In this document: piece by piece, positions 6,510 through 60,640 of the stretch
Layout: every line of letters starts with the position of its first letter
Position numbering within the stretch: position 1 is the stretch's first letter
Source of the DNA: Desulfurispora thermophila DSM 16022
GTDB taxonomy: Bacteria > Bacillota > Desulfotomaculia > Desulfotomaculales > Desulfurisporaceae
Length of the DNA: 64,000 nucleotides
Reading direction: 5' to 3'
Assembly: GCF_000376385.1 (NCBI RefSeq)
Contig: NZ_AQWN01000003.1
Coordinates: 62,001 to 126,000, forward strand
Notes under the pieces: model-generated
Told to the model about the DNA's origin: nothing
Databases searched by the model: none
The model's input: only the letters and a program-made list of their open reading frames with translations
Position numbers and translations under genes: made by a program

Positions 6510-7782
6510 AACCGCCCCGGTGCAGGTGAGGGAAAAGCTGGCCTTTTCCGAGCACAGTCTGCCGGGAGCGCTGCAGGAGCTGAGGAAATATCAGGGAATA
6601 AATGGCTGTGTGATTATTTCCACTTGTAACCGGACCGAGATCTACGCCGCCGTGGATGAGGAACATGCCGGTGTGGAGTCCATCCTGGACTTTTTGGTCC
6701 GCCGCTCGGGTGTGGAGCGGGTCGAACTGCGCGGTTATCTTTATAACTACGGTTCATATACAGCAGCCCGCCATTTGTTCCGCGTGGCGGCCGGTCTGGA
6801 CTCCATGGTGTTGGGTGAAACGCAAATTCTGGGCCAGGTCAAGCAGGCCCTGGCCATTGCCCAGGAGCACCGGGCCACGGAAAAGATTCTCAATACTCTT
6901 TTCCGCCAGGCCCTCACGGTGGGCAAAAGGGCGCGTACGGAAACCGGCATTGACCAGAATTCGGTGTCCATCAGCTATGCCGCGGTGGAACTGGCCCGGC
7001 AAATTTTCGGCACGTTGCAGGATAGAACCGTGTTGATTATTGGCGCGGGCAAAATGAGCGAGCTCACGGCCCTCCACCTGGTATCCAACGGGGTGAGCGG
7101 CGTAATTGTATCCAACCGCTCTTATGAGCGGGCGGTGCGGCTGGCGGAAAAATTCGGCGGTCAAGCCGTGCGTTTTTCGGAATTGTTTAAATATATGCTG
7201 CGGGCCGACATTGTGATCAGCTGTACGGCCGCCACCCACTATGTGGTGCGCCTGGTCGAGATGCAGCAGGTCATGGAACAGCGCGGTCAGCGCCCGCTGA
7301 TGATTATCGACATAGCTGTGCCCCGGGATGTGGATCCGGCCGTGGGTAACCTGCCCGGGGTGAAGCTGTATGATGTGGACGCGCTGCAGCACGTGATCGA
7401 CCGCAACCTGGAGACGCGGCGCAAGGCCGCTTTGCGGGCGGAAAGCATCATTGAGCAGGAACTGGCCGGTTTTATGCAATGGCTGGGTAGCCTGTACGCC
7501 GTGCCCACCATCACGGCCCTGAAAAAGCTGGGCGAAGACATTAAACAGAAAGAACTGCGGCGGGCCTTCAACCGCCTGGGCGACCTTACGGATCACGACC
7601 GCAAGGTGATCGGTTCTCTGGCCAATTCCATTGTTAATCAATTGCTGCACATGCCTGTGGTGCGCCTGAAGGAATACGCCCTGACACCACAGGGGCAATT
7701 ATATAATGAAGTGCTTTGCCATCTGTTTGACCTGCCCACCGGGGCGGAGGACAAGCCGAACATCCAGGCAGCACAAAAATGA
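6478..7782 (+). CDS. hemA: Glutamyl-tRNA reductase
   Basis: A 434-residue enzyme that reduces glutamyl-tRNA to glutamate-1-semialdehyde with NADPH, the first committed step of C5-pathway tetrapyrrole synthesis. The catalytic cysteine is C50 in 'STCNRTE'. '[13 protein letters not shown]' is the NADPH-binding loop, '[16 protein letters not shown]' with '[10 protein letters not shown]' is the conserved central helix, and the C-terminus is the dimerisation helix. ATG 6478 follows AAAGGAGAG. It overlaps the precorrin-2 dehydrogenase gene, as is common in clostridial heme operons. Confidence 0.95.
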
Positions 7783-7796
7783 CAGGAGGACGGGGC

Positions 7797-8738
7797 ATGG
7801 CCAAGACTATCCGCATTGGAACCAGAGAGAGCGCCCTGGCCATGTGGCAGGCGCGCTGGGTGCAGCAGCGGCTGGAGCAATTCTGGCCGGAGTACAGGTT
7901 TGAACTGGTGGGCATGAAAACCAAAGGAGACAAAATTCTGGACACCGCGCTGGCCCGCATTGGCGACAAGGGACTTTTTACCAAGGAACTGGAGCAGGCC
8001 ATGCTGCGGGGGGAAATAGACCTGGCCGTGCACAGTATGAAAGACTTGCCGACCAAACTGCCGGCAGGTCTTTTCATTGCCGCGGTGTGCCAGCGGGAGT
8101 ACCCGGGCGATGTGCTGGTTTCCCGCCGGGCGGCTCAGCTGGAACAGTTACCGCCGGGTGCCCGTATTGGCACCAGCAGCCTGCGCCGTCAGTCGCAACT
8201 GAAACATTACCGCGCCGACCTGAAGTTTATAACCGTGCGCGGCAATGTGCAGACCCGCCTGCGCAAAATGCAGGATCTGGATCTGGACGCCGTGGTACTG
8301 GCTTACGCCGGCCTGGCTCGCCTGGGTTTGGAGGAGCATATAACCCAGCGCCTGCCCTTCGATATTGTCCTGCCGGCCGTAGGGCAGGGCAGCATTGGTG
8401 TGGAGACGCGCCAGGACGACGAACTGATCTGCACTTTGCTTAAGCCGCTGGACCACTTCCCCAGCCGGGTGGCCATTACAGCCGAGCGGGCTTTTTTGCA
8501 AAAGTTGGAAGGCGGCTGCCAGGTGCCCATTGGCGCGCTGGGCCAGGTGCAGGGAGAACAGCTGACCCTGCAGGGCGTGGTGGCCAGCCTGGACGGCCGG
8601 GAACTGGTGCGCGACAGCATTGCAGGTTCCTGTGCCGAGGCCGGGGCGCTGGGTGCACAGCTGGCGGAAAAGCTCCTGGCCATGGGGGCGGAGAAAATTT
8701 TGCAGGATGCCAGACAGGAGTTTGAGAATAATGGGTGA
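7797..8738 (+). CDS. hemC: Porphobilinogen deaminase (hydroxymethylbilane synthase)
   Basis: A 313-residue enzyme that joins four porphobilinogens into hydroxymethylbilane. 'IGTRESALAMWQA' opens the protein; 'HSMKDLPT' holds the catalytic aspartate region; 'GTSSLRRQSQL' and 'VRGNVQTRLRKM' bind substrate phosphates and carboxylates. The dipyrromethane cofactor is attached at C241 in 'EGGCQVPIGA'. ATG 7797 follows AGGAGGA. It overlaps the next gene by 8 bases, which indicates translational coupling. Confidence 0.95.
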   Translation: MAKTIRIGTRESALAMWQARWVQQRLEQFWPEYRFELVGMKTKGDKILDTALARIGDKGLFTKELEQAMLRGEIDLAVHSMKDLPTKLPAGLFIAAVCQREYPGDVLVSRRAAQLEQLPPGARIGTSSLRRQSQLKHYRADLKFITVRGNVQTRLRKMQDLDLDAVVLAYAGLARLGLEEHITQRLPFDIVLPAVGQGSIGVETRQDDELICTLLKPLDHFPSRVAITAERAFLQKLEGGCQVPIGALGQVQGEQLTLQGVVASLDGRELVRDSIAGSCAEAGALGAQLAEKLLAMGAEKILQDARQEFENNG

Positions 8739-10269
8739 AAACAAGAGGGGAAAAGTCTACCTGGTGGGCGCCGGGCCGGGCGACCCGGGCCTGATCACAG
8801 TGAAGGGGCGGGAGTGTATTGCCCGGGCCGATGCCCTGGTCTATGACCGCCTGGCCGGGCCGCGCCTGCTGGCCTATGCCCGGCCCGATGCCCGGCTGTA
8901 CTATGTGGGCAAAAGCCCGCAGCGGCACGCACTCAAGCAGGAGGAAATCAACGCCCTGCTGGTGGAACTGGCCGGGCAAGGCCTGGTGGTCACCCGCCTC
9001 AAGGGCGGCGATCCTTTTGTCTTTGGCCGGGGTGGGGAAGAAGCCCTGGCGCTGGCCCGGGCCGGCATTGAATTCGAGGTGGTGCCGGGGGTGACTTCGG
9101 CCGTGGCCGTGCCGGCTTACGCCGGTATTCCGGTCACCCAGCGGGGGATGACCTCCACCCTGGGCATAGTTACCGGTAACGAGGATCCGGGAAAAGAAAG
9201 TACCGACCTGGACTGGGCCGGTATCAGCAGCATGGGTACGGTGGTCTTTTTAATGGGTATGGCCAACCTGCCGGCCATTGTCAGGCAACTGCTGGCCCAC
9301 GGCCGTTCGCCCGATACTCCGGTGGCCGTAATTCGCTGGGGTACCCGCCCCGAACAGGCTGCTTTAACCGGCACACTGGCCGACATTGTGGACCTGGTGC
9401 GGGAACATAACTTTACCAATCCGGCGGTGATTGTGGTGGGCCAGGTGGTTTCCTTAAGGGAGCAACTGGCCTGGTTTGAGAAAAAACCTCTCTTTGGCCG
9501 GCGGGTGCTGGTCACCCGTTCCCGGGAACAGGCCAGTGCTCTGTGTGCCGCTGTGGAACAACTGGGCGGGGAGCCCATTGAGTTTCCCGTCATCCAGATT
9601 GTGGATCCGGAAAGCTACGCGCCGCTGGACCGGGCCATAGCCCGGATCCGCCGCTACCACTGGATTATTTTCACCAGCGCCAACGGCGTTCGCTATTTCT
9701 TCCGCCGCCTGTGGGAGCAGGGTGGCGATGTGCGGGATTTGCAGGGTATTAACATTGCCGCCATCGGGCCGCAGACCAGGTTGGCGGTGGAAAGATATGG
9801 TATCCGCGTAGCCTATGTGCCCGAGGAATACCGGGCAGAAGCGGTGGTGGATGGTCTGCGCGGCGGTCTGCAGTCCGGGCAGGCTGTGCTGTTGCCCCGG
9901 GCGGACATCGCCCGCGATGTATTGCCCCGGCAGCTGCGGCAGATGGGCCTGCAGGTGGACGAGGTTACGGCCTACCGCACGGTGGCCGGCGCGGGCAATG
10001 CCGATATGATACGGGAGTTGTTGCAGGCGGGGCAGATTGATTATGTCACTTTTACCAGTTCTTCCACGGTGCGCAATTTTGTCAGTGCGTTAAACCATCC
10101 GGATCTTCCCGGACTGCTGCAAAGCCGGGCAGTGAAGGTGGCGGCCATTGGTCCGGTGACAGCGCAAACTGCCCGGGAGCTGGGGCTGCCCGTGCACATC
10201 CAGGCCGGGCGGTACACCATTGAGGGGCTGCTAGAGGCCATTGTGAATGACGTGCGGGGGAGCGTTTAA
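8731..10269 (+). CDS. cobA-hemD: Fused uroporphyrinogen-III methyltransferase / uroporphyrinogen-III synthase
   Basis: A 512-residue fusion of two successive enzymes. Residues about 1-245 are SUMT (CobA), with 'VYLVGAGPGDPGLITVKG', 'TRLKGGDPFVFGRGGEE' and 'VVPGVTSAVAVPAYAGIP', which methylates uroporphyrinogen III to precorrin-2 using SAM. From about 250 on is HemD, with 'RVLVTRSREQASAL', 'IIFTSANGVRYF' and 'VTFTSSSTVRNF', which closes hydroxymethylbilane to uroporphyrinogen III. The fusion commits the product toward siroheme and fits the ahb genes downstream. ATG 8731 lies inside the hemC end. Confidence 0.95.
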   Translation: MGENKRGKVYLVGAGPGDPGLITVKGRECIARADALVYDRLAGPRLLAYARPDARLYYVGKSPQRHALKQEEINALLVELAGQGLVVTRLKGGDPFVFGRGGEEALALARAGIEFEVVPGVTSAVAVPAYAGIPVTQRGMTSTLGIVTGNEDPGKESTDLDWAGISSMGTVVFLMGMANLPAIVRQLLAHGRSPDTPVAVIRWGTRPEQAALTGTLADIVDLVREHNFTNPAVIVVGQVVSLREQLAWFEKKPLFGRRVLVTRSREQASALCAAVEQLGGEPIEFPVIQIVDPESYAPLDRAIARIRRYHWIIFTSANGVRYFFRRLWEQGGDVRDLQGINIAAIGPQTRLAVERYGIRVAYVPEEYRAEAVVDGLRGGLQSGQAVLLPRADIARDVLPRQLRQMGLQVDEVTAYRTVAGAGNADMIRELLQAGQIDYVTFTSSSTVRNFVSALNHPDLPGLLQSRAVKVAAIGPVTAQTARELGLPVHIQAGRYTIEGLLEAIVNDVRGSV

Positions 10270-51800: not shown

Positions 51801-53009
51801 TTAGCTCAGAACTGGTTCTTTTAAACCTACTTTTAAGATTGTATGGTTGAAAGGTAGATAACGAAGAGAGGTTTCCTGCCAGAAAGCTACAGGTTTCTCC
51901 AGAAAATTGTGTTTCTTGTTGATAAAATGCAAGTATTTTAATAACTTTTTTTTGTTTTTATCTAGCTCTTCTTGTTTGCAGAGGGCAAAAGATGTTAAAA
52001 CTGCAGGAGCTGTCAGAAAGCCGATATAACGGAGTGGCCTTGAAGGAGCAAGTTGATAAAACCGGTATGGGTATGAATCGGAGAAATAGCACCCGGAAAA
52101 ATTGAAAACAGGGACTAGACCCTTAGCATTGTCAGGAAGACTGTATTTAATGCCCGCAAACAAAGGTTGCACTGAAGAGGTAGTAGTAATAAAGCTAAAG
52201 GACGGAGATAATTCACTGACTTCTACGTAATTCTGCACTTGAAAAAGTCTAAATGCAGAACCAACTTTAAAAAGTGCCAAAGCATAACGGTAGCCAAACA
52301 AGACGGCAGCCCCCCGGGCAATTTGTAACAAAGGAGCAAATTCGTAAGTTTTACCGCAAGCTTGCTGTAAAAAATCATCGGTTAAACAGACGGCTTCATT
52401 TTCAACCCAATATATCCCAGGAGAGTATGGGGCAAAAAAATCCCTTAGTTGTTGAAGATAAGGATGTACTGTAATTGTAAAAGCATCGGCTATTAGCAAA
52501 GCCTTTTCTCGCTCGCGAAAGCCAAGTTGTGGGCAATTCTGGGATTTTAAAATTATCGCTTGAGTAAATTTTCTAAGTACGCGAATAGCTTTGTTTTCTT
52601 TTTCCGGGTAAACTAGGGCAAAAGGTGTAATGATGGAGACTACTTTGGTTTTTTTAATCTGTTCTTTGTTTTCTTTTAATACCCGTATAAGTTTTTCTGG
52701 GGTTACCTGCAAAACCTTCACCAGATTTTGTAAACCCTGAGGATAGGTAAGAAAAGCACTAAATTGCTCTGGCACAAGGCGAAGATGAAAGATTGGCCCA
52801 ATATTATTTTTTGGCAAAAAAGAAAGGGGTGGGGTAAAGTAGACTTTATTTACGTCTCTTTTAGTTAAACCTAATAGGGAAAGACAGTGTTGCAATTCAT
52901 CCAAAAAACTTTTCGGAGAAAACTTTCCTTCGTAGAAAAGATATCTGCCCGATCCAGCAATAAGAGTTCCATATTGGCCGTTTAAAAAAATTCCCAGCAC
53001 AAGTTTCAA
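51801..53009 (-). CDS. Degenerate hydantoinase/oxoprolinase (HyuA-like) paralogue
   Basis: A 402-residue protein that aligns by eye with the intact HyuA at 58343 but lacks its signatures. 'FLDELQHCLSLLGLTKRDVNKV' matches 'IFEALHRVLEKSKVNRNNIKY'; 'GFREREKALLIADAFT' matches 'GLLERENATVLNAALV'; 'LLQIARGAAVLFG' matches 'TNSIRGAAFLS'. The nucleotide-binding 'DVGGTNTD' is replaced by 'FLNGQYGT' and the second 'DVGGTTSD' by 'KVGSAFRL'; the C-terminal 120 residues are missing. It probably no longer binds ATP. TTG 53009 follows GGAGGT and overlaps the DUF917 stop by 4 bases. A regulatory or structural role is inferred. Confidence 0.65.
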   Translation of the reverse strand: MKLVLGIFLNGQYGTLIAGSGRYLFYEGKFSPKSFLDELQHCLSLLGLTKRDVNKVYFTPPLSFLPKNNIGPIFHLRLVPEQFSAFLTYPQGLQNLVKVLQVTPEKLIRVLKENKEQIKKTKVVSIITPFALVYPEKENKAIRVLRKFTQAIILKSQNCPQLGFREREKALLIADAFTITVHPYLQQLRDFFAPYSPGIYWVENEAVCLTDDFLQQACGKTYEFAPLLQIARGAAVLFGYRYALALFKVGSAFRLFQVQNYVEVSELSPSFSFITTTSSVQPLFAGIKYSLPDNAKGLVPVFNFSGCYFSDSYPYRFYQLAPSRPLRYIGFLTAPAVLTSFALCKQEELDKNKKKLLKYLHFINKKHNFLEKPVAFWQETSLRYLPFNHTILKVGLKEPVLS

Positions 53010-54115
53010 GAAAATACCTCCTTTTTGCGGTAGTGGCTCGGATATAACTTTTCAAGGGGCAGGTAAGTAGTTCGGTAACCAAAACATTGCGGGCCAACCA
53101 CATCTAGTGCTTTTCTGATTCTGAGCCGAAGCGGCGCCGGAAGGCCCAAAAGCGCCAGCCTCTGTCCTTCATAAATTTCGTTGTTGTTTACTGGTTTAAG
53201 TTCATTTAAATCAACTAAAGAGATTAAATCAGGCACACTAGCAGCGACATTATTGTTTTTAAAAACGAGCAAATTTTCATACTGAAATAGCAGTTGTAAC
53301 TCTTCACCTTTTGGTGAGATTAATGTGGCGGCTTTCCATTTAGCAGATTCATAGGTCGAGATGCTTTTTAAAGTACCCTGGAAAATTTCGACCACGGGAC
53401 CGTATAGAGAATTTGAAGTTACTTCTAAAAGCAAACCAAACAGCTCACGGTAATTATCAGCTTGCAAAAAGCATTCTCCTATTTCTCGGGCAAAAGTTAG
53501 CGTGCCCGGAAGAAGGAGCCTTTTTAATACGGAACCTGGATAGGGAAAACCAGCAAAGTAACCAACTCCGCCCTGTTGGCCAATAATCTGGCGGGTATTA
53601 AGCTCTAAAAGAAAATTATCTTGTTTATCAAGGAACGAATGCAAGTGATAATTGCCGTCAATTAACACTAAGGGAGCAGCAGCCAAGTTTTCAAGATGAT
53701 AGGTGGTCATTTGCAACTCAGGAAAAGCTCGCCCCATGCTGTCCCCGTCAGCGACAGGTAAGCCGGTTTGGAGCGCAGCTAAGAGTGGGTAAAAAATGTT
53801 AACCCCAGCTCCTTCAACAATTGAGATTCCTTTAAACTTGACTCCAGTGTATTTTTCCAACTCCTCAATAATGATACCCGCCTCCAGCCCCGAAGGCAGG
53901 TTCTCTTCACTTAATTCCGGTGAGCCTAAGAGGCCGGTCCCACAAAAAAAATTATTATCCGGCAATTCCTCAAGCATCAATAGTGGGATAACACGGTTTT
54001 GCAGAGCTTTTTGCAGCTCGGATGCTAAAAGGTGGCTTTTTCCGCCGCCACCCGAACCAAGAAAAATACTGCCGTACCAAAGGGGTTCAATCCACTCAAT
54101 GGTAATTTCTTGCAT
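53006..54115 (-). CDS. DUF917 family protein, second copy
   Basis: A 369-residue protein of the DUF917 family, whose members are partners of hydantoinase/oxoprolinase proteins. Its core is kept: 'GSIFLGSGGGGKSHLL' corresponds to 'AALLGTGGGGDPYVG' of the copy at 57244, and 'DGDSMGRAFPELQMTTYHL' to 'DVDGMGRAFPELQMVTFHL'. Overall it is quite divergent. ATG 54115 follows AGGTG and lies 9 bases from the activator's stop. It is paired with the degenerate HyuA-like gene, mirroring the intact DUF917-HyuA pair across the regulator. Confidence 0.78.
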   Translation of the reverse strand: MQEITIEWIEPLWYGSIFLGSGGGGKSHLLASELQKALQNRVIPLLMLEELPDNNFFCGTGLLGSPELSEENLPSGLEAGIIIEELEKYTGVKFKGISIVEGAGVNIFYPLLAALQTGLPVADGDSMGRAFPELQMTTYHLENLAAAPLVLIDGNYHLHSFLDKQDNFLLELNTRQIIGQQGGVGYFAGFPYPGSVLKRLLLPGTLTFAREIGECFLQADNYRELFGLLLEVTSNSLYGPVVEIFQGTLKSISTYESAKWKAATLISPKGEELQLLFQYENLLVFKNNNVAASVPDLISLVDLNELKPVNNNEIYEGQRLALLGLPAPLRLRIRKALDVVGPQCFGYRTTYLPLEKLYPSHYRKKEVFS

Positions 54116-54123
54116 ATTCACAC

Positions 54124-55692
54124 CTACTTTAGACGGTATTTTTTTAGCCAACGATAGAGAGTTGCCAGACTAACTCCCAACTCCTGAGCAATTAACTTCT
54201 TGGACTGGGTAGAGTGACCGTACTCGGCTAATAGAATTTCTAACCGTTCTTTTAATTGACCGTCCTGGATAAGAGGACGTCCGGTTTTAACGGCAGTAAA
54301 CTGGAGTTTACTGGAGGAAAGGCCGTTTTGTGAATACTTGGGTAGATAATGCGGAGTAATGATATCACCTTCACAAAGGGAAACGGTGTAGGCAACTACG
54401 TTTTTCAGTTCTCGCACATTCCCTGGCCAATTATAATCCCGAAGGATCTGAACGGCTTCCGGACTAAAAATTTTAAATGGTTTATTTTGTTCAAGACAAA
54501 TATTTTTTAAATAGAAGTCCAAAAGCAGAGGTATATCGTCTCGTCGCTCACGTAGCGGTGGTATATGAACCGGAAAAACATTTAAGCGAAAGAAAAGATC
54601 TTCTCTAAATAGCTTAGCATCAATTAATTCTTTTAAATTTTTATTAGTTGCTGCAATAACCCTTATATCGACTGGATAGGAAACGGTAGCTCCGATTCTT
54701 TCCACCCGCCGTTCCTCCAGAACCCGTAGGAGTTTTGCTTGTAATTGGGTAGGCATGTCGCCGATTTCATCAAGAAAAATTGTTCCACCATTGGCAAGCT
54801 CAAATTTACCAGGCTTGCCGCCGCGACGGGCACCTGTAAAGGAGCCTTCTTCGTAACCGAAAAGTTCGCTTTCGAGAAGGTTGTCGGGAATTGCAGCGCA
54901 GTTTATGGCAATAAAAGGCCGCTCTTTCCGGGGACTTAGGTAGTGGATATAGCGAGCAAAGAGTTCTTTACCGGTACCACTTTCGCCCTGGAGCAATACG
55001 GTGTTGTTGGTAACTGCGATCTGGCGTGCAAGTTTTTTTATTTCTAAAAAACGGTGGTTTTTGCCTGGAATGGTAAAATAAGACTCATTTTGCAAGAAGG
55101 ATTCAGTTTCTTCCTGTTGGGCCGGTTCCGGTTTCCAGGCCAGCAAACCTGTCATCTTGCCGTTTTTTAAAAAAACATGGTAATAAAATTTTCCCCACCT
55201 GGTGTCTATAAAACCTTCTGGTTCACCTGTCCGAATTAAATTTTCCCAGAGGGCAGAGGCAGAAAGTTGGATAGGGGTATGGCTCTGACTTAAGATCACC
55301 TGTCCTTTGTTGTTAAAAAGGAAAAAGTTTGTATCAAACTGGCTTGTCAAAAATTGCAGAGCTTCTGTTGTCAGGGTATTATCTGATTTTTGCTCAGAAG
55401 CAAATAACATTTCCAATACAGTCAAGAGAAATTTAACGAGCAGAGCAGGCGTTAGATTTAAACTTCTATCGATTTCTTTGGGCCAGGCGGCCCAAAAAAC
55501 ATCTTCTGCTAGTTTAAAGGCTAGTATTAAGCTGTAAGGGCAAACAGCACCTTCCGGGCAGGTGGGTGTACAGGGTGGCGCCCAAACACGATAGCCTACT
55601 TTGGGGAGTGGGATTAATGAAAGACATTTTTCCGGAAGATTGGTTACAAGGCCAAAGGTTTCTTTTAGAGAATCAATAAAAGCTTTTCTCAT
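54124..55692 (-). CDS. Sigma-54-dependent transcriptional activator
   Basis: A 522-residue enhancer-binding protein. The N-terminal 200 residues are a sensory part with a cysteine cluster, '[16 protein letters not shown]', and a PAS-like stretch ('[19 protein letters not shown]'). The AAA+ domain has Walker A '[15 protein letters not shown]', the sigma-54 loop in the form '[18 protein letters not shown]', and Walker B '[12 protein letters not shown]'. The C-terminus is a Fis-type helix-turn-helix ('[20 protein letters not shown]'). It is divergent from the permease operon, whose sigma-54 promoter it presumably activates. Start is ATG 55692 or GTG 55704. Confidence 0.9.
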
Positions 55693-55766
55693 CAATTTTA
55701 TCACCGCTAAAAATAAGAAATATTAAGAACATGTAAGAAAATAAAAGAAAAATAAATATCATTTAT

Positions 55767-55795
55767 ATTTTACTCCACAAAAAGTCTTATGACAA
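55767..55795 (-). promoter_or_regulatory. SigA promoter of the activator operon
   Basis: On the minus strand TTGTCA (55795-55790), 17 bases, TAAAAT (55772-55767). Confidence 0.65.
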
Positions 55796-55850: not shown

Positions 55851-55867
55851 CTGGCATAGAACTTGCT
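55851..55867 (+). promoter_or_regulatory. Sigma-54 promoter of the permease operon
   Basis: CTGGCATAGAACTTGCT matches the -24/-12 consensus TGGCAyr-N4-TTGCw, with exactly 10 bases between the GG and GC pairs. It lies about 50 bases before the permease start. Confidence 0.85.
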
Positions 55868-55915: not shown

Positions 55916-57223
55916 ATGGTTAAAGGTGACGATTATGCATTGTCAAGAATTCCGGTTGAGAAACGGCGTCCGATGTGGGAAGTGTTTATGATCCGTTTTG
56001 GAGCTGTGGTTACCCTGTCTCAATTTATTTTAGGTGCAGCACTTGGTTATGGAATGACGCTAAAAGAAGCGTTGCTTGCTACTTTGCTTGGTTCGGTGTT
56101 GCTGGAAATCATCAGTTTTTTAATTGGGGTTGCCGGTGCATGGGAAGGGCTTTCTACTTCACTCTTAGCCCGGTGGAGTGGTTTTGGTCGGTTAGGTTCG
56201 AGTTTAATTGGCCTAATTGTGGGTATTTCTTGCATTGGCTGGTTTGGAATTCAAAACTCGATTTTTGCTCAAGGCTTGAATCAAGCTTTTGGTGGAACTA
56301 TCAACATTAAGGTAATGTCTTTGGTGACTGGACTTGTTATTACTTTACTGGTGGTTTATGGTTACAAAATGTTAAGCTATACCGCTAACATTGCCGTACC
56401 AGGCTTTCTGCTTGCGTTAGGCATTGCTACCTACCAACTATTAAGTAAGTACGACCTTAATACTCTTCTCAACTCCTCACCGCCTGGCCAGCAATTAAGC
56501 CTTGGGGTTGCGGTAACAATGGTTGCTGGAGGTTTTATGGTTGGAGCAGTTGTTACACCGGACCTATCTCGATATAATCGCAATGCCAAAGATGTTTTCT
56601 GGATGACGCTTCTTAGTATTTTTGCGGGAGAGCTCTTAATTACTTTCCTGGCGGTTTTGATGGCTCACGCGGTTAAAAGCGCAGATGTTATCACTATTAT
56701 GCTAAATCTTGGGGGTTGGACTGCCGCGGCATTGGTGATATTTTCCACCATCAAGATCAACGATTTAAACTTATATGCCGCATCGTTAGGAATTTCTAAC
56801 TTTCTTGATGCCGTCTTTGGAATTAAGATGAGCAGAGCTATTTTAACCATCATCATTGGGACATTGGGGACGTTGGGTTCGGTCCTCGGGATATTGGACA
56901 AATTTGTTAATTTCCTGATTATCCTTGGCACGGCAATTCCTCCTGTCGGCGGAATTATGGTAGTAGATTACTTTATCTTAAAGAGATATCGTCATGAACT
57001 GGCGGAATCCATGAACCAAGGTTGCATGCCTGAAGTGGTGGAAGATTGGAACCCCATTGCCTTGATTAGCCTCGTGGCAGCTTTTATAATTGGCTATTTC
57101 TATAAAGGAGGCCTAAATCCGGCATTAAACTCCTTACTGGTCGGCATGATCAGTTACTATGGGTTGATGAAGCTATACATGGCTATCTCGCCGGCTAAAA
57201 ATGTTAAATTTATTAAAGCTTAA
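55916..57223 (+). CDS. NCS1-family permease (cytosine/hydantoin/allantoin type)
   Basis: A 435-residue transporter with about 12 hydrophobic segments of the nucleobase:cation symporter-1 family, which imports nucleobases, hydantoins, allantoin or similar. 'ISCIGWFGIQNSIFAQG' and 'GGFMVGAVVTPDLSRYNRN' correspond to the substrate and sodium-binding helices 3 and 6. AAGGGGGATGG precedes the ATG. It is the first gene of the sigma-54 operon with DUF917, HyuA and a racemase, which favours a hydantoin-like substrate. Confidence 0.85.
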   Translation: MVKGDDYALSRIPVEKRRPMWEVFMIRFGAVVTLSQFILGAALGYGMTLKEALLATLLGSVLLEIISFLIGVAGAWEGLSTSLLARWSGFGRLGSSLIGLIVGISCIGWFGIQNSIFAQGLNQAFGGTINIKVMSLVTGLVITLLVVYGYKMLSYTANIAVPGFLLALGIATYQLLSKYDLNTLLNSSPPGQQLSLGVAVTMVAGGFMVGAVVTPDLSRYNRNAKDVFWMTLLSIFAGELLITFLAVLMAHAVKSADVITIMLNLGGWTAAALVIFSTIKINDLNLYAASLGISNFLDAVFGIKMSRAILTIIIGTLGTLGSVLGILDKFVNFLIILGTAIPPVGGIMVVDYFILKRYRHELAESMNQGCMPEVVEDWNPIALISLVAAFIIGYFYKGGLNPALNSLLVGMISYYGLMKLYMAISPAKNVKFIKA

Positions 57224-57243: not shown

Positions 57244-58326
57244 ATGACCAAAATCGATGTGCAAATGGTAGAAGACATTGCGGTTGGGGCGGCGCTACTG
57301 GGAACTGGAGGAGGGGGAGATCCCTATGTGGGTAAGTTGATGGCTATTCAGGCATTAAAAAAGAACGGTCCGGTGGAACTTATTGATGTTGAGCAGGTGC
57401 CGGATGACGCCTGGGTGGTTCCAGCAGCAATGATGGGAGCCCCGACGGTGCTAGTCGAGAAAATACCATCCGGGAAAGAGATTTTCAAAGCCTTTGACAG
57501 CTTGCAAAATTACCTTGGAAAGGAAATTTACGCTGTTATCCCAATCGAAGCAGGTGGATTGAACTCAATGATTCCAATCACTGTAGCAGCGGAAAGAAAG
57601 CTTCCGCTTGTCGACGTTGATGGAATGGGGCGAGCCTTTCCAGAACTACAGATGGTTACTTTTCATTTGTATGGTGTTTCGGCGACACCCATGGTTCTAG
57701 CGGATGAAAAAGGTAATTCTTTGTTGCTCAATACTATTAATAACTTCTGGACGGAAAACCTTGCTAGAAACGCCACGGTAGTTATGGGCGGATCGGTTAT
57801 GATTGCTATTTATCCAATGAAAGGTAAAGATTTAAAGCAGTCCGGGATTCGAAATATAATTACTTACTCGGCTAAAATTGGACAAGCAATCCGGGAAGCA
57901 CGCAAAAACGGCGATGACCCCATTGAAGCGCTTTTAAAAGCGACTGGTGGTTATACCCTCTTTAAAGGGAAGATTTCCGATGTGCAGCGGCGTACTACTG
58001 GCGGCTTTGTTCGGGGTGAGGCACACATAGATGGGATCGACCAGTATAAAGGTGAAACCATGGCGATTGACTTCCAAAACGAAAACTTAATTGCTCGCCG
58101 GAACGGGAGAGTTGTAGCTACAGTACCTGATCTTATCTGTACGGTTGATGCCCATACGGCTGCGCCCATTACTACCGAAGGATTGCGCTATGGACAACGG
58201 GTGTTCATTCTCGGTATTCCCTGCGATAAAAAGTGGCGGAGCGAAAAAGGCATAGCTACCGTCGGACCTCGCTATTTTGGTTACGATGTTGATTATGTTC
58301 CTATTGAAGAGCTTATTAAAGGATAA
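57244..58326 (+). CDS. DUF917 family protein, intact copy
   Basis: A 360-residue protein of the DUF917 family. 'GAALLGTGGGGDPYVG' near residue 20, 'VIPIEAGGLNSMIPI' and 'DVDGMGRAFPELQMVTFHL' are the conserved core, and 'VATVPDLICTVDAHTAAP' the C-terminal part. The family accompanies hydantoinase A-type proteins and may supply the second half of the active enzyme in place of HyuB; this is inference. AAGGAGGGG precedes the ATG. Confidence 0.85.
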   Translation: MTKIDVQMVEDIAVGAALLGTGGGGDPYVGKLMAIQALKKNGPVELIDVEQVPDDAWVVPAAMMGAPTVLVEKIPSGKEIFKAFDSLQNYLGKEIYAVIPIEAGGLNSMIPITVAAERKLPLVDVDGMGRAFPELQMVTFHLYGVSATPMVLADEKGNSLLLNTINNFWTENLARNATVVMGGSVMIAIYPMKGKDLKQSGIRNIITYSAKIGQAIREARKNGDDPIEALLKATGGYTLFKGKISDVQRRTTGGFVRGEAHIDGIDQYKGETMAIDFQNENLIARRNGRVVATVPDLICTVDAHTAAPITTEGLRYGQRVFILGIPCDKKWRSEKGIATVGPRYFGYDVDYVPIEELIKG

Positions 58327-58342
58327 AGGGGGGGCGGAAGAA

Positions 58343-59893
58343 ATGGAATACCGGATAGGAATTGACGTTGGAGGTACCAATACCGACGCGGTACTGGTCG
58401 ATGAAAACATGCAGTTAGTGGAAAGCATCAAAGTTCCAACTACAAAAGACGTTTCCAGTGGGATATTTGAAGCCCTGCACCGGGTCCTGGAAAAAAGTAA
58501 AGTCAACCGCAATAATATTAAATACGCCATGCTTGGTACTACTCATGCAACTAACGCTATTGTGGAACGTAAACGGCTCTGCAAAACAGCAATTGTCCGA
58601 ATCGGTCGTCCTGCGACTGAAGCAATTGCACCTCTGGCTGCCTGGCCTGGTGACTTAGTTGAGGCGGTGGGAAACCATTATTATCTAATTGCCGGCGGTC
58701 ACGAATTTGATGGACGGGAAATAAGCCCATTAAATGAAGATGAGCTTAAAAAAATTGCCCTGGAACTTAAAGGCAGAGTGGAGAGCATTGCAATAGTTTC
58801 GGTCTTTTCGCCGGTGAACAACCAGCATGAATTAAGGGCGCGGGAAATACTACAAGAGGTACTGGGTGAAATTCCTATTTCCCTTTCCCATGAAATTGGT
58901 TCGATCGGCCTTTTAGAGCGGGAAAACGCTACTGTATTAAATGCTGCATTGGTAGACGTTGCCCGAACTACAGCAAATGGTTTTAAAGAAGCATTAGCGC
59001 GGGAAGGGGTTACCGGTGCCAAAGTATTTCTCTGCCAGAACGACGGAACTTTAATGTCGATAGAATACGCGATGCGCTATCCAATTCTGACTATTGCCTG
59101 TGGACCTACAAACAGTATCCGTGGTGCGGCTTTTCTAAGTAACCTGGAGAATGCTATGGTGCTTGATGTAGGTGGTACCACCAGTGATATAGGTATTATT
59201 GCCCAAGGTTTTCCGCGGGAATCTTCAATTGCAGTAGAAATTGGCGGGGTTAGAACTAACTTTCGGATGCCAGACTTGATTTCCATTGGTCTTGGCGGGG
59301 GTACAATTGTTCGGGAAGAAAACGGCGAAGTTAAAATCGGGCCTGATAGCGTAGGCTATCGGATAACTGAGGAGGCCCTGGTTTTTGGTGGTAAGACAAT
59401 TACAGCTACGGATGTGGCAGTGCGCTTGGGATTAGCAGAGGTGGGAGATAAAGAAAAAGTGAGGAATTTGCCGCTGGAACTAGCTCAAAAGGCTTATGAT
59501 AAAATGCAAGAGATGGTTGAGGAAGCTATTGACAAGATAAAAACCAGCAAAGAGCCACAACCGCTTGTTCTGGTTGGCGGCGGCAGTATCATAGTTAGTA
59601 ACAATATCAATGGGGTAAGCCAGGTGGTTCGGCCGCAAAATTTTGGCGTTGCTAATGCCTTGGGAGCTGCAATTGCTCAGGTTAGCGGCGAGGTTGACCG
59701 TATTTACTCCTTGAGTGAAATGTCCCGGGAAGCAGCACTTCAAGATGCCAAGCAGCTGGCAATAGCTGAGGCTGTTAAAGCCGGTGCTGATCCTGCTTCC
59801 GTAAACATTGTTCATGTAGAAGACATTCCGCTTGCTTACCTGCCTGGAAATGCTGTAAGAATACGGGTCAAAGCTTCCGGGGATTTGATTTAA
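58343..59893 (+). CDS. Hydantoinase/oxoprolinase family protein (HyuA)
   Basis: A 516-residue member of the ATP-dependent hydantoinase / 5-oxoprolinase A family, which opens cyclic amides at the cost of ATP. The actin-like nucleotide motifs are intact: 'GIDVGGTNTDAVLV' at residues 6-19 and 'MVLDVGGTTSDIGII' in the second half, with 'LGTTHATNAIVER' and 'SIGLGGGTIVREE'. ATG 58343 follows GGGGGGCGGAAG; the frame upstream overlaps DUF917. No HyuB gene follows, so DUF917 may be the partner. Confidence 0.88.
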   Translation: MEYRIGIDVGGTNTDAVLVDENMQLVESIKVPTTKDVSSGIFEALHRVLEKSKVNRNNIKYAMLGTTHATNAIVERKRLCKTAIVRIGRPATEAIAPLAAWPGDLVEAVGNHYYLIAGGHEFDGREISPLNEDELKKIALELKGRVESIAIVSVFSPVNNQHELRAREILQEVLGEIPISLSHEIGSIGLLERENATVLNAALVDVARTTANGFKEALAREGVTGAKVFLCQNDGTLMSIEYAMRYPILTIACGPTNSIRGAAFLSNLENAMVLDVGGTTSDIGIIAQGFPRESSIAVEIGGVRTNFRMPDLISIGLGGGTIVREENGEVKIGPDSVGYRITEEALVFGGKTITATDVAVRLGLAEVGDKEKVRNLPLELAQKAYDKMQEMVEEAIDKIKTSKEPQPLVLVGGGSIIVSNNINGVSQVVRPQNFGVANALGAAIAQVSGEVDRIYSLSEMSREAALQDAKQLAIAEAVKAGADPASVNIVHVEDIPLAYLPGNAVRIRVKASGDLI

Positions 59894-59911: not shown

Positions 59912-60640
59912 ATGAAAATTAAGGTGATTATGCCAATTACGTCTGATGTCTTTAACAATGAGATCAGGGAAGAATTTAAGCATTATATTGAACCCGGCGA
60001 CAGTTTTGACGTGGAGAATTTAGACTATGGTCCGGCTTCTATTGAAAGTGAATTTGATGAGGCGATGGCGATTCCGGATATTTTAAATAAAGTTAAAAAA
60101 GCCCAGAAAGAAGGATTTGACGGGGTTATTATAGATTGTTTTGGTGATCCCGGGGTTAATGCAGCCCGGGAATTGGTAGATATCCCAGTTTGCGGCGGTT
60201 TTGAGCCGTCCATGCAGATTGCAGCGGGCCTTGGCAAAAATCTCGGCATAGTTACAGTTTTACCCAATGTTGTTCCGATGCTTCAGGACCTGATTTCCAA
60301 AATGGGGTTAGAGAAGCGGGTTAAGTCAATACGCTATGTAAATATTCCGGTATTGGACTTGGGGGACAAGCAGAAATTAGAAGATGAGCTGTATAACCAG
60401 AGCTTAGAGGCGATTAAGAACGATCATGTTCATGTGCTCGTGCTAGGTTGTACCGGCATGATGGGGATGGCTCATAACCTGATGCAGCGGCTAAAAGAGG
60501 CTGGCTATGATATTCCGGTAGTGGATCCGGCCTTTGCTGCGGTGATGATGGTTAAAAATTACGTGCATATGGGATTAAAGCATAGCCGGTTGACTTATAT
60601 GACGCCACCTGTAAAACCATATACCTGGTGGGGGAACTAG
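59912..60640 (+). CDS. Aspartate/glutamate/hydantoin racemase family protein
   Basis: A 242-residue racemase of the Asp/Glu/hydantoin superfamily. The two catalytic cysteines are visible: C76 in 'IIDCFGDPG' and C180 in 'LGCTGMMGMA'. With a hydantoinase it would invert the 5-substituted ring so both enantiomers can be opened. GGGGGGATA precedes the ATG. It is the last gene before the terminator at 60699. Confidence 0.88.
   Translation: MKIKVIMPITSDVFNNEIREEFKHYIEPGDSFDVENLDYGPASIESEFDEAMAIPDILNKVKKAQKEGFDGVIIDCFGDPGVNAARELVDIPVCGGFEPSMQIAAGLGKNLGIVTVLPNVVPMLQDLISKMGLEKRVKSIRYVNIPVLDLGDKQKLEDELYNQSLEAIKNDHVHVLVLGCTGMMGMAHNLMQRLKEAGYDIPVVDPAFAAVMMVKNYVHMGLKHSRLTYMTPPVKPYTWWGN

Follow-up and report, generated by a model that had tools for sequence, protein, structure and literature searches.

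The window analysed here is a 64,000-nt stretch of the genome of Desulfurispora thermophila DSM 16022 (contig NZ_AQWN01000003.1, positions 62,001 to 126,000), and all positions given below for it are counted from its first nucleotide. It contains two divergent operons (Table 1), which together are called the module. The plus-strand operon encodes a permease, a DUF917 protein (DUF917a), an intact HyuA and a racemase family protein. The minus-strand operon encodes a sigma-54 activator, a second DUF917 protein (DUF917b) and a degenerate HyuA. The ORF coordinates agree with this order, already given in the preliminary description of the locus, and with the location of the minus-strand genes opposite the intact DUF917-HyuA pair.

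Table 1. Genes and control elements of the two divergent operons, in window coordinates
Feature	Position	Strand	Remarks
Degenerate HyuA, 402 aa	51801..53009	-	TTG start; HyuA/ASKHA-type, proposed pseudo-ATPase co-regulator
DUF917b (S-Me-THD-like)	53006..54115	-	ATG at 54115; Pfam
Sigma-54 enhancer-binding activator, 526 aa	54124..55704	-	AAA+ with GSFTGA loop, Fis-like HTH
Probable upstream activating site, TRAGAA-type direct repeats	55714..55749	+	exact 10-bp spacing
Best sigma-70-like promoter for the activator operon, TTGTCA-17-TAAAAT	55767..55795	-	predicted
Sigma-54 -24/-12 promoter TGGCATagaacTTGCT for the permease operon	55852..55867	+	17/17 loci
NCS1 permease (cytosine/allantoin/hydantoin type)	55916..57223	+	family profile matches
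DUF917a, presumed catalytic partner of HyuA	57244..58326	+	Pfam
Intact HyuA	58343..59893	+	DVGGT at residues 8 and 275
Asp/Glu/hydantoin racemase family protein	59912..60640	+	Pfam

The activator and DUF917b genes are separated by 8 nt, the ATG listed for DUF917b being a likelier start than a TTG further upstream. The TGA codon of DUF917b and the TTG start of the degenerate HyuA gene share 4 nt (TTGA), and this TTG is preceded by AGGAGG; the overlap is a predicted translational coupling in the clade of the window. In the plus-strand operon HyuA is paired with DUF917 (57244-59893), and the Pfam scan of the neighbouring genes revealed no HyuB, which suggests that this branch of the ATP-dependent ring hydrolases uses DUF917 instead of HyuB. 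Both DUF917 proteins score below the cut-off of 450 bits of the S-methyl thiohydantoin desulfurase equivalog NF058532 (124.9 bits for DUF917a and 31.8 bits for DUF917b), and a literature search on this desulfurase gave no match.

The activator contains a Sigma54 AAA+ domain (Pfam, 232.9 bits; cut-off 20.2) with the Walker motif GESGTGKE and a GAFTGA-type loop that reads GSFTGA, the matches to its Fis-like HTH stay below the cut-off, and rpoN is present in the genome. The domain profile search detected neither a receiver domain nor a strong known sensory domain. The N-terminal part (55090-55704) shows a weak PAS signal and weak PAS/GAF matches, and its structural model has low confidence (pLDDT 66); the DhaR(N)-DhaK complex (PDB 4lrx) is among its weak matches (E 0.018). 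This part also carries a C-x(2-3)-C-x(5)-C motif, usually with CP at the second cysteine, that is present in all activators compared except that of locus L035, a very divergent version of the module. The three cysteines may have a role in metal binding, redox reactions or contact.

The degenerate HyuA and its DUF917 partner

Several blocks of the minus-strand protein had been proposed to align with the intact HyuA. As a single sequence, it has no match in Pfam or NCBIfam and nothing significant in the PDB, and BLASTP against the neighbouring HyuA gives an E-value of 0.003; thus, relatives were needed to sustain the claim, and with them it is secure. The profile of its orthologues aligns with HyuA over 386 columns, reaching the HyuA end (hhalign, Prob 99.3, E 4.9e-20), and a control alignment with DUF917a gives Prob 0.1. 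Several individual orthologues also match HyuA (E 1e-8 to 5e-14), and in the PDB the profile finds the HyuA-type subunit of caprolactamase (6yra, annotated as 5-oxoprolinase; E 5e-4). The structure prediction asked for in the preliminary description points in the same direction. In a Foldseek search, the AlphaFold2 model (pLDDT 80, pTM 0.71) retrieves at the top ranks the HyuA-type subunits of acetophenone carboxylase, caprolactamase and acetone carboxylase (E 1.7e-11 to 5e-8), with a TM-score of about 0.5 by query length. Chance similarity to HyuA is ruled out by the profile and fold matches together with the negative control.

The loss of both DVGGT motifs, noticed before in one protein, extends to the whole family, since the two DxGGT motifs (P1 and P2) are missing in 17/17 orthologues. 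The glycine-rich motifs GLGGGT/VGGGS are likewise gone in all 17, and a deletion has removed from the nucleotide lobe about 65 residues, those that follow GLGGGT in HyuA. The ASKHA phosphate and glycine-rich adenosine motifs are present in the seven partner HyuAs (7/7). The ADENOSINE, PHOSPHATE 1 and PHOSPHATE 2 motifs are strictly conserved across the HyuA family (PMC5214803). The HyuA of ATP-dependent hydantoinase/oxoprolinase and the alpha subunits of acetophenone carboxylase have the same fold and can be aligned over the full length (PMC5214803), but they keep these three motifs and the degenerate HyuA has lost all of them. Its scores stay below the HyuA Pfam cut-offs too, the best values among seven orthologues being E 0.063 for Hydantoinase_A and E 0.029 for Hydant_A_N. 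Since profile and fold match HyuA while the phosphate and glycine-rich motifs are lost, the degenerate HyuA is a member of the HyuA family by descent, not by nucleotide-binding criteria.

DUF917b exceeds both Pfam cut-offs of 27 bits (PF06032, 143.1 bits; PF20906, 132.3 bits) and, as reported in the preliminary description, retains GSGGGG and DSMGRAFPELQM. In comparison with 82 other DUF917 proteins (residues in DUF917a numbering), the invariant set of the N-domain, i.e., E101, D123, D125, MGRAFPE and others, is kept in 16/16 DUF917b sequences, and the C-domain lacks residues that are nearly invariant elsewhere, namely the GGF-x-R-G loop, T310, E312, Y316 and R319. One reading of this pattern is that the binding site was retained and the chemistry altered. 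All 16 DUF917b sequences fall into a single clade, which has a long stem and full SH-aLRT support, and largely the same succession of lineages is seen in both subtrees, DUF917a and DUF917b. This clade branches outside the DUF917a proteins of these operons and is not nested in them; therefore, no local copying event in this lineage gave rise to the pair, and the tree rules out a recent local duplication of DUF917a. DUF917b is thus an old lineage with a single ancient origin. The earlier proposal that the catalytic pair was duplicated and that one copy became a co-regulator finds support in its second half, the pair tracking the regulator, its promoter and its repeat array as described below, but DUF917b is no recent copy of DUF917a.

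Selection on these genes was estimated by dN/dS (Nei-Gojobori, using pairs with unsaturated synonymous sites). The values for the degenerate HyuA, 0.16-0.29, indicate purifying selection; those of the activator are 0.11-0.23, those of DUF917b 0.05-0.11 and those of the catalytic enzymes 0.02-0.11. The degenerate HyuA therefore evolves at approximately the rate of the activator and faster than the enzymes, in a regulator-like rather than a pseudogene-like manner. Identity within its family is about 15-20%, and a contig scan with the single sequence found nothing, probably because the protein evolves too fast, so that DUF917b served as the query instead. In partial Mantel tests with linear correction for HyuA and DUF917a distances, the distances of the degenerate HyuA track those of the activator (r 0.74 for the N-terminal part and 0.79 for the AAA+ part) and of DUF917b (r 0.63), and do not follow those of the permease. 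These tests suggest that the degenerate HyuA co-diverges with the activator and DUF917b beyond what the enzymes explain, although the r values may be inflated by non-linear residuals that fast-evolving genes have in common, and the permease has been swapped in places.

Distribution of the module and its intergenic control region

The search with DUF917b in 113 genomes of the order of the window yielded six further genomes, each also containing DUF917a. Hence, both proteins co-occur in the same 7/113 genomes and are never found alone (chance 2.6e-11, a value calculated as if these related genomes were independent). In these genomes the third gene encodes about 400-450 aa, and the operon is divergent from permease-DUF917a-HyuA; in one of them (G067) the halves of the module sit on separate contigs. 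The profile of the third gene, searched in 398 genomes of the phylum, added eight to these. The named records found by the DUF917b scan include Thermoanaerobacter sp. A7A (86% identity), Desulfovirgula, a Thermosediminibacterales MAG, Candidatus Petromonas tenebris and Desulfosporosinus. The order activator-DUF917b-degenerate HyuA is the same in every DUF917b locus examined, about 16 from many Bacillota families, which excludes a random pairing of these genes and answers the question, raised at the outset, of whether other genomes share it. The racemase gene is often present in the plus operon.

Bacilli that have the same enzyme pair without DUF917b carry a preceding PucR regulator, and the degenerate pair is absent from the loci with HyuA-DUF917a and a different or no visible regulator. 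As the pair tracks the activator, the sigma-54 site and the TRAGAA array, and is absent with other regulators, it is tied to the regulator. In loci L026, L035, L137 and L138, the permease comes from a different NCS1 branch (~30% identity to that of the window); since the permease is exchanged while the rest stays, the regulator-pair unit is independent of the permease type.

Two observations on single loci can be added. L132 (G221:C43, 6029-10284) holds a decayed module in which the permease, DUF917a and the N-terminal part of the activator are missing and the degenerate HyuA is frameshifted, with an intact DUF917b ORF; the cause may be genuine decay or a fault in the assembly. No gene fusion of DUF917 with HyuA, which would have pointed to a complex, was found among the loci; of the long ORFs, the one looked at individually, in the GC-rich locus L067, lies by its coordinates in a frame that differs from that of the DUF917 match.

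Exactly one TGGYAY-N5-TTGCW site is present in each divergent intergenic region of the 17 compared, a set that includes two from close relatives, facing the permease, while shuffled sequences predict 0.18 loci by chance. The site was found in 0/18 permease upstream regions of loci without DUF917b. The promoter of the window has the -24 GG and -12 GC elements with 5-bp spacing. Upstream of the sigma-54 site most loci carry TRAGAA(A) direct repeats (L034 and L134 are among the few without clear copies), and across the loci the 10-bp distance occurs in 27 pairs and the 20-bp distance in 21, where 0.4 would be expected in each case. In the window, the repeats are TAAGAA at 55714, 55724 and 55734 and AAAGAA at 55744. 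The 2.8-Mb genome has a single copy of the triple repeat, and thus, the activator is probably pathway-specific. Sigma-70-like matches such as that from 55795 to 55767 are no more numerous in the region than expected by chance, and this one could drive the activator operon. Its position would place the TRAGAA array in the leader of that operon, allowing self-limitation. This arrangement suggests that the expression of the sensor operon is low, constitutive and possibly self-limited.

A candidate ligand-sensing co-regulator and its alternatives

Gene linkage, the promoter, the loss of the ATP motifs and selection are observed in the compared sequences, and on this basis the best reading of the pair appears to be that of a ligand-sensing co-regulator. 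HyuA and DUF917a would open a hydantoin-like ring with ATP. Oligomers of the activator would bind the TRAGAA array and contact the sigma-54 polymerase. DUF917b and the degenerate HyuA would assemble into a catalytically inactive copy of the HyuA-DUF917a complex, binding the substrate in the conserved DUF917 pocket of DUF917b, and the degenerate HyuA would relay control to the PAS/cysteine N-terminal part of the activator. The substrate would be a hydantoin-like or lactam ring, as judged solely from the families of the NCS1 permease, HyuA and the racemase. Complex formation, ligand binding and contact with the activator are predicted steps, and so is the sign of control, for which an anti-activator relieved by the ligand seems slightly likelier than a ligand-dependent co-activator. 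That the pair supplies the ligand input is the economical explanation, because the pair, the activator and the sigma-54/TRAGAA region co-occur and all are absent where another regulator is present, and because the activator lacks a receiver domain and gives a weak PAS signal. We consider that the case for a substrate-inducible catabolic switch, with the non-catalytic pair as its sensor, is somewhat better than balanced. The wider proposal, that a whole HyuA-DUF917 enzyme with both its subunits turned once in Bacillota into a dedicated complex that senses a ligand independently of ATP, gates a sigma-54 activator and stands in for the sensory domain of this regulator, might equally well be right or wrong.

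Part of the evidence would also fit another division of labour, in which DUF917b is an active second hydrolase or inducer maker, the degenerate HyuA is its structural partner and the activator senses the product or substrate through its own PAS/cysteine part, so that a constitutive scout enzyme accompanies its regulator. The low dN/dS of DUF917b, which is almost as constrained as DUF917a, and its intact N-domain motif are compatible with an active enzyme, and the PAS/GAF-like, three-cysteine N-terminal part of the activator might sense alone; both points count against the sensor reading, as does the very divergent version in L035, whose activator is without the cysteine motif. However, DUF917b has lost residues of the C-domain that hardly vary among the 82 DUF917 proteins compared with it, and the partner genes never part from the activator. 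Since these residues are lost in DUF917b and the ATP site is lost in its partner, ATP-coupled chemistry is unlikely for the pair, and we regard an active second enzyme as rather unlikely.

Both subunits are homologous to the catalytic pair, and they might also enter the oligomers of HyuA-DUF917a, acting there as inhibitors or assembly factors, their linkage to the regulator serving for dosage. The absence of the degenerate pair from HyuA-DUF917a loci with a different or no visible regulator, and a divergence that follows the activator more than the enzymes, make such mixed complexes quite improbable. The fast divergence of the degenerate HyuA and its one frameshifted copy, at L132, would in turn be expected from a decaying duplicate without function, but this pseudogene reading is contradicted by the dN/dS of 0.16-0.29, by reading frames that are intact in 17 orthologues, and by a distribution that indicates a single origin and a long shared history in many families; we give it hardly any credit.

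If the sensor reading is true, the module would be an example from bacteria in which the two subunits of one enzyme became a sensor together. It would offer a handle on what DUF917 proteins bind and on the way in which enhancer-binding proteins that lack receiver domains perceive metabolites. As the sensor pair would retain the binding site and lose the chemistry, a comparison of both pairs would tell the residues for binding apart from those for catalysis. With its sigma-54 site and phased array, the switch is amenable to a reporter assay.

Relation to known systems and other DUF917 loci

In Lactococcus lactis, DhaQ, an inactive paralogue of a catabolic enzyme subunit, reportedly acts with DhaS as a dedicated co-regulator of a catabolic operon. 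DhaQ has been labelled a coactivator of the DhaKLM operon (PMC7911632). The pair described here is likewise a paralogue of the regulated enzyme, inactive to judge from its lost motifs, and is co-encoded with the regulator. However, DhaS belongs to the TetR family and works with one subunit of another enzyme family, whereas here a two-subunit paralogue set accompanies a sigma-54 activator. The DhaR protein of Escherichia coli is an NtrC-type activator whose GAF/PAS N-terminal part is controlled by contact with DhaK/DhaL. The module also has an NtrC-type activator beside subunits related to the regulated enzyme, with a contact that is proposed; the regulators of DhaR are, in contrast, active enzyme subunits and not a dedicated degenerate pair. 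In Burkholderia, the enzyme-like protein RpfR binds the N-terminal part of the RpoN-dependent activator BerB (PMC9684580), but that system, which works in c-di-GMP signalling, has no paralogue pair, and its RpfR is a composite enzyme that is active. The preliminary description knew of no such arrangement. Our literature search, in which only four open-access papers named DUF917, found no description of this HyuA/DUF917 sensor version, but the general idea has precedents in DhaQ and DhaR-DhaK/DhaL. A dead enzyme paralogue as co-regulator is known already, and the two-subunit conversion would be the unusual part.

Sigma-54 regulons of Clostridiales comprise metabolic enhancer-binding activators that work with -24/-12 promoters and upstream sites and in many cases control one target operon (PMC6615313), and the module resembles them in activator type, promoter and upstream sites. 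No hyuA or DUF917 target operon appears among the 39 groups of Table 1 of that work. XhpR, which has overlapping hosts and a target unknown there, uses TGT-N10-12-ACA sites (PMC6615313); the identification of the activator with XhpR was rejected, since its upstream sites are TRAGAA repeats. The PucR-regulated operons of Bacilli share the enzyme pair and an NCS1-type permease with the module, but they have no sigma-54 activator, DUF917b, degenerate HyuA or -24/-12 site.

DUF917 paralogues are also found in other contexts. The genome of the window encodes a third one (L022, C7:54000-72000, positions 7760-8893), in an operon with transporter-like genes, of the oligopeptide ABC type by eye, and two flanking proteins that are related and, also by eye, aminopeptidase-like. 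Operons of this type are conserved in G043 and G052 (L030 and L031). The actinobacterial loci L047, L054, L081 and L106 contain HyuA with two or three DUF917-like genes, some of them very divergent, and are possibly another case of paralogue specialisation.
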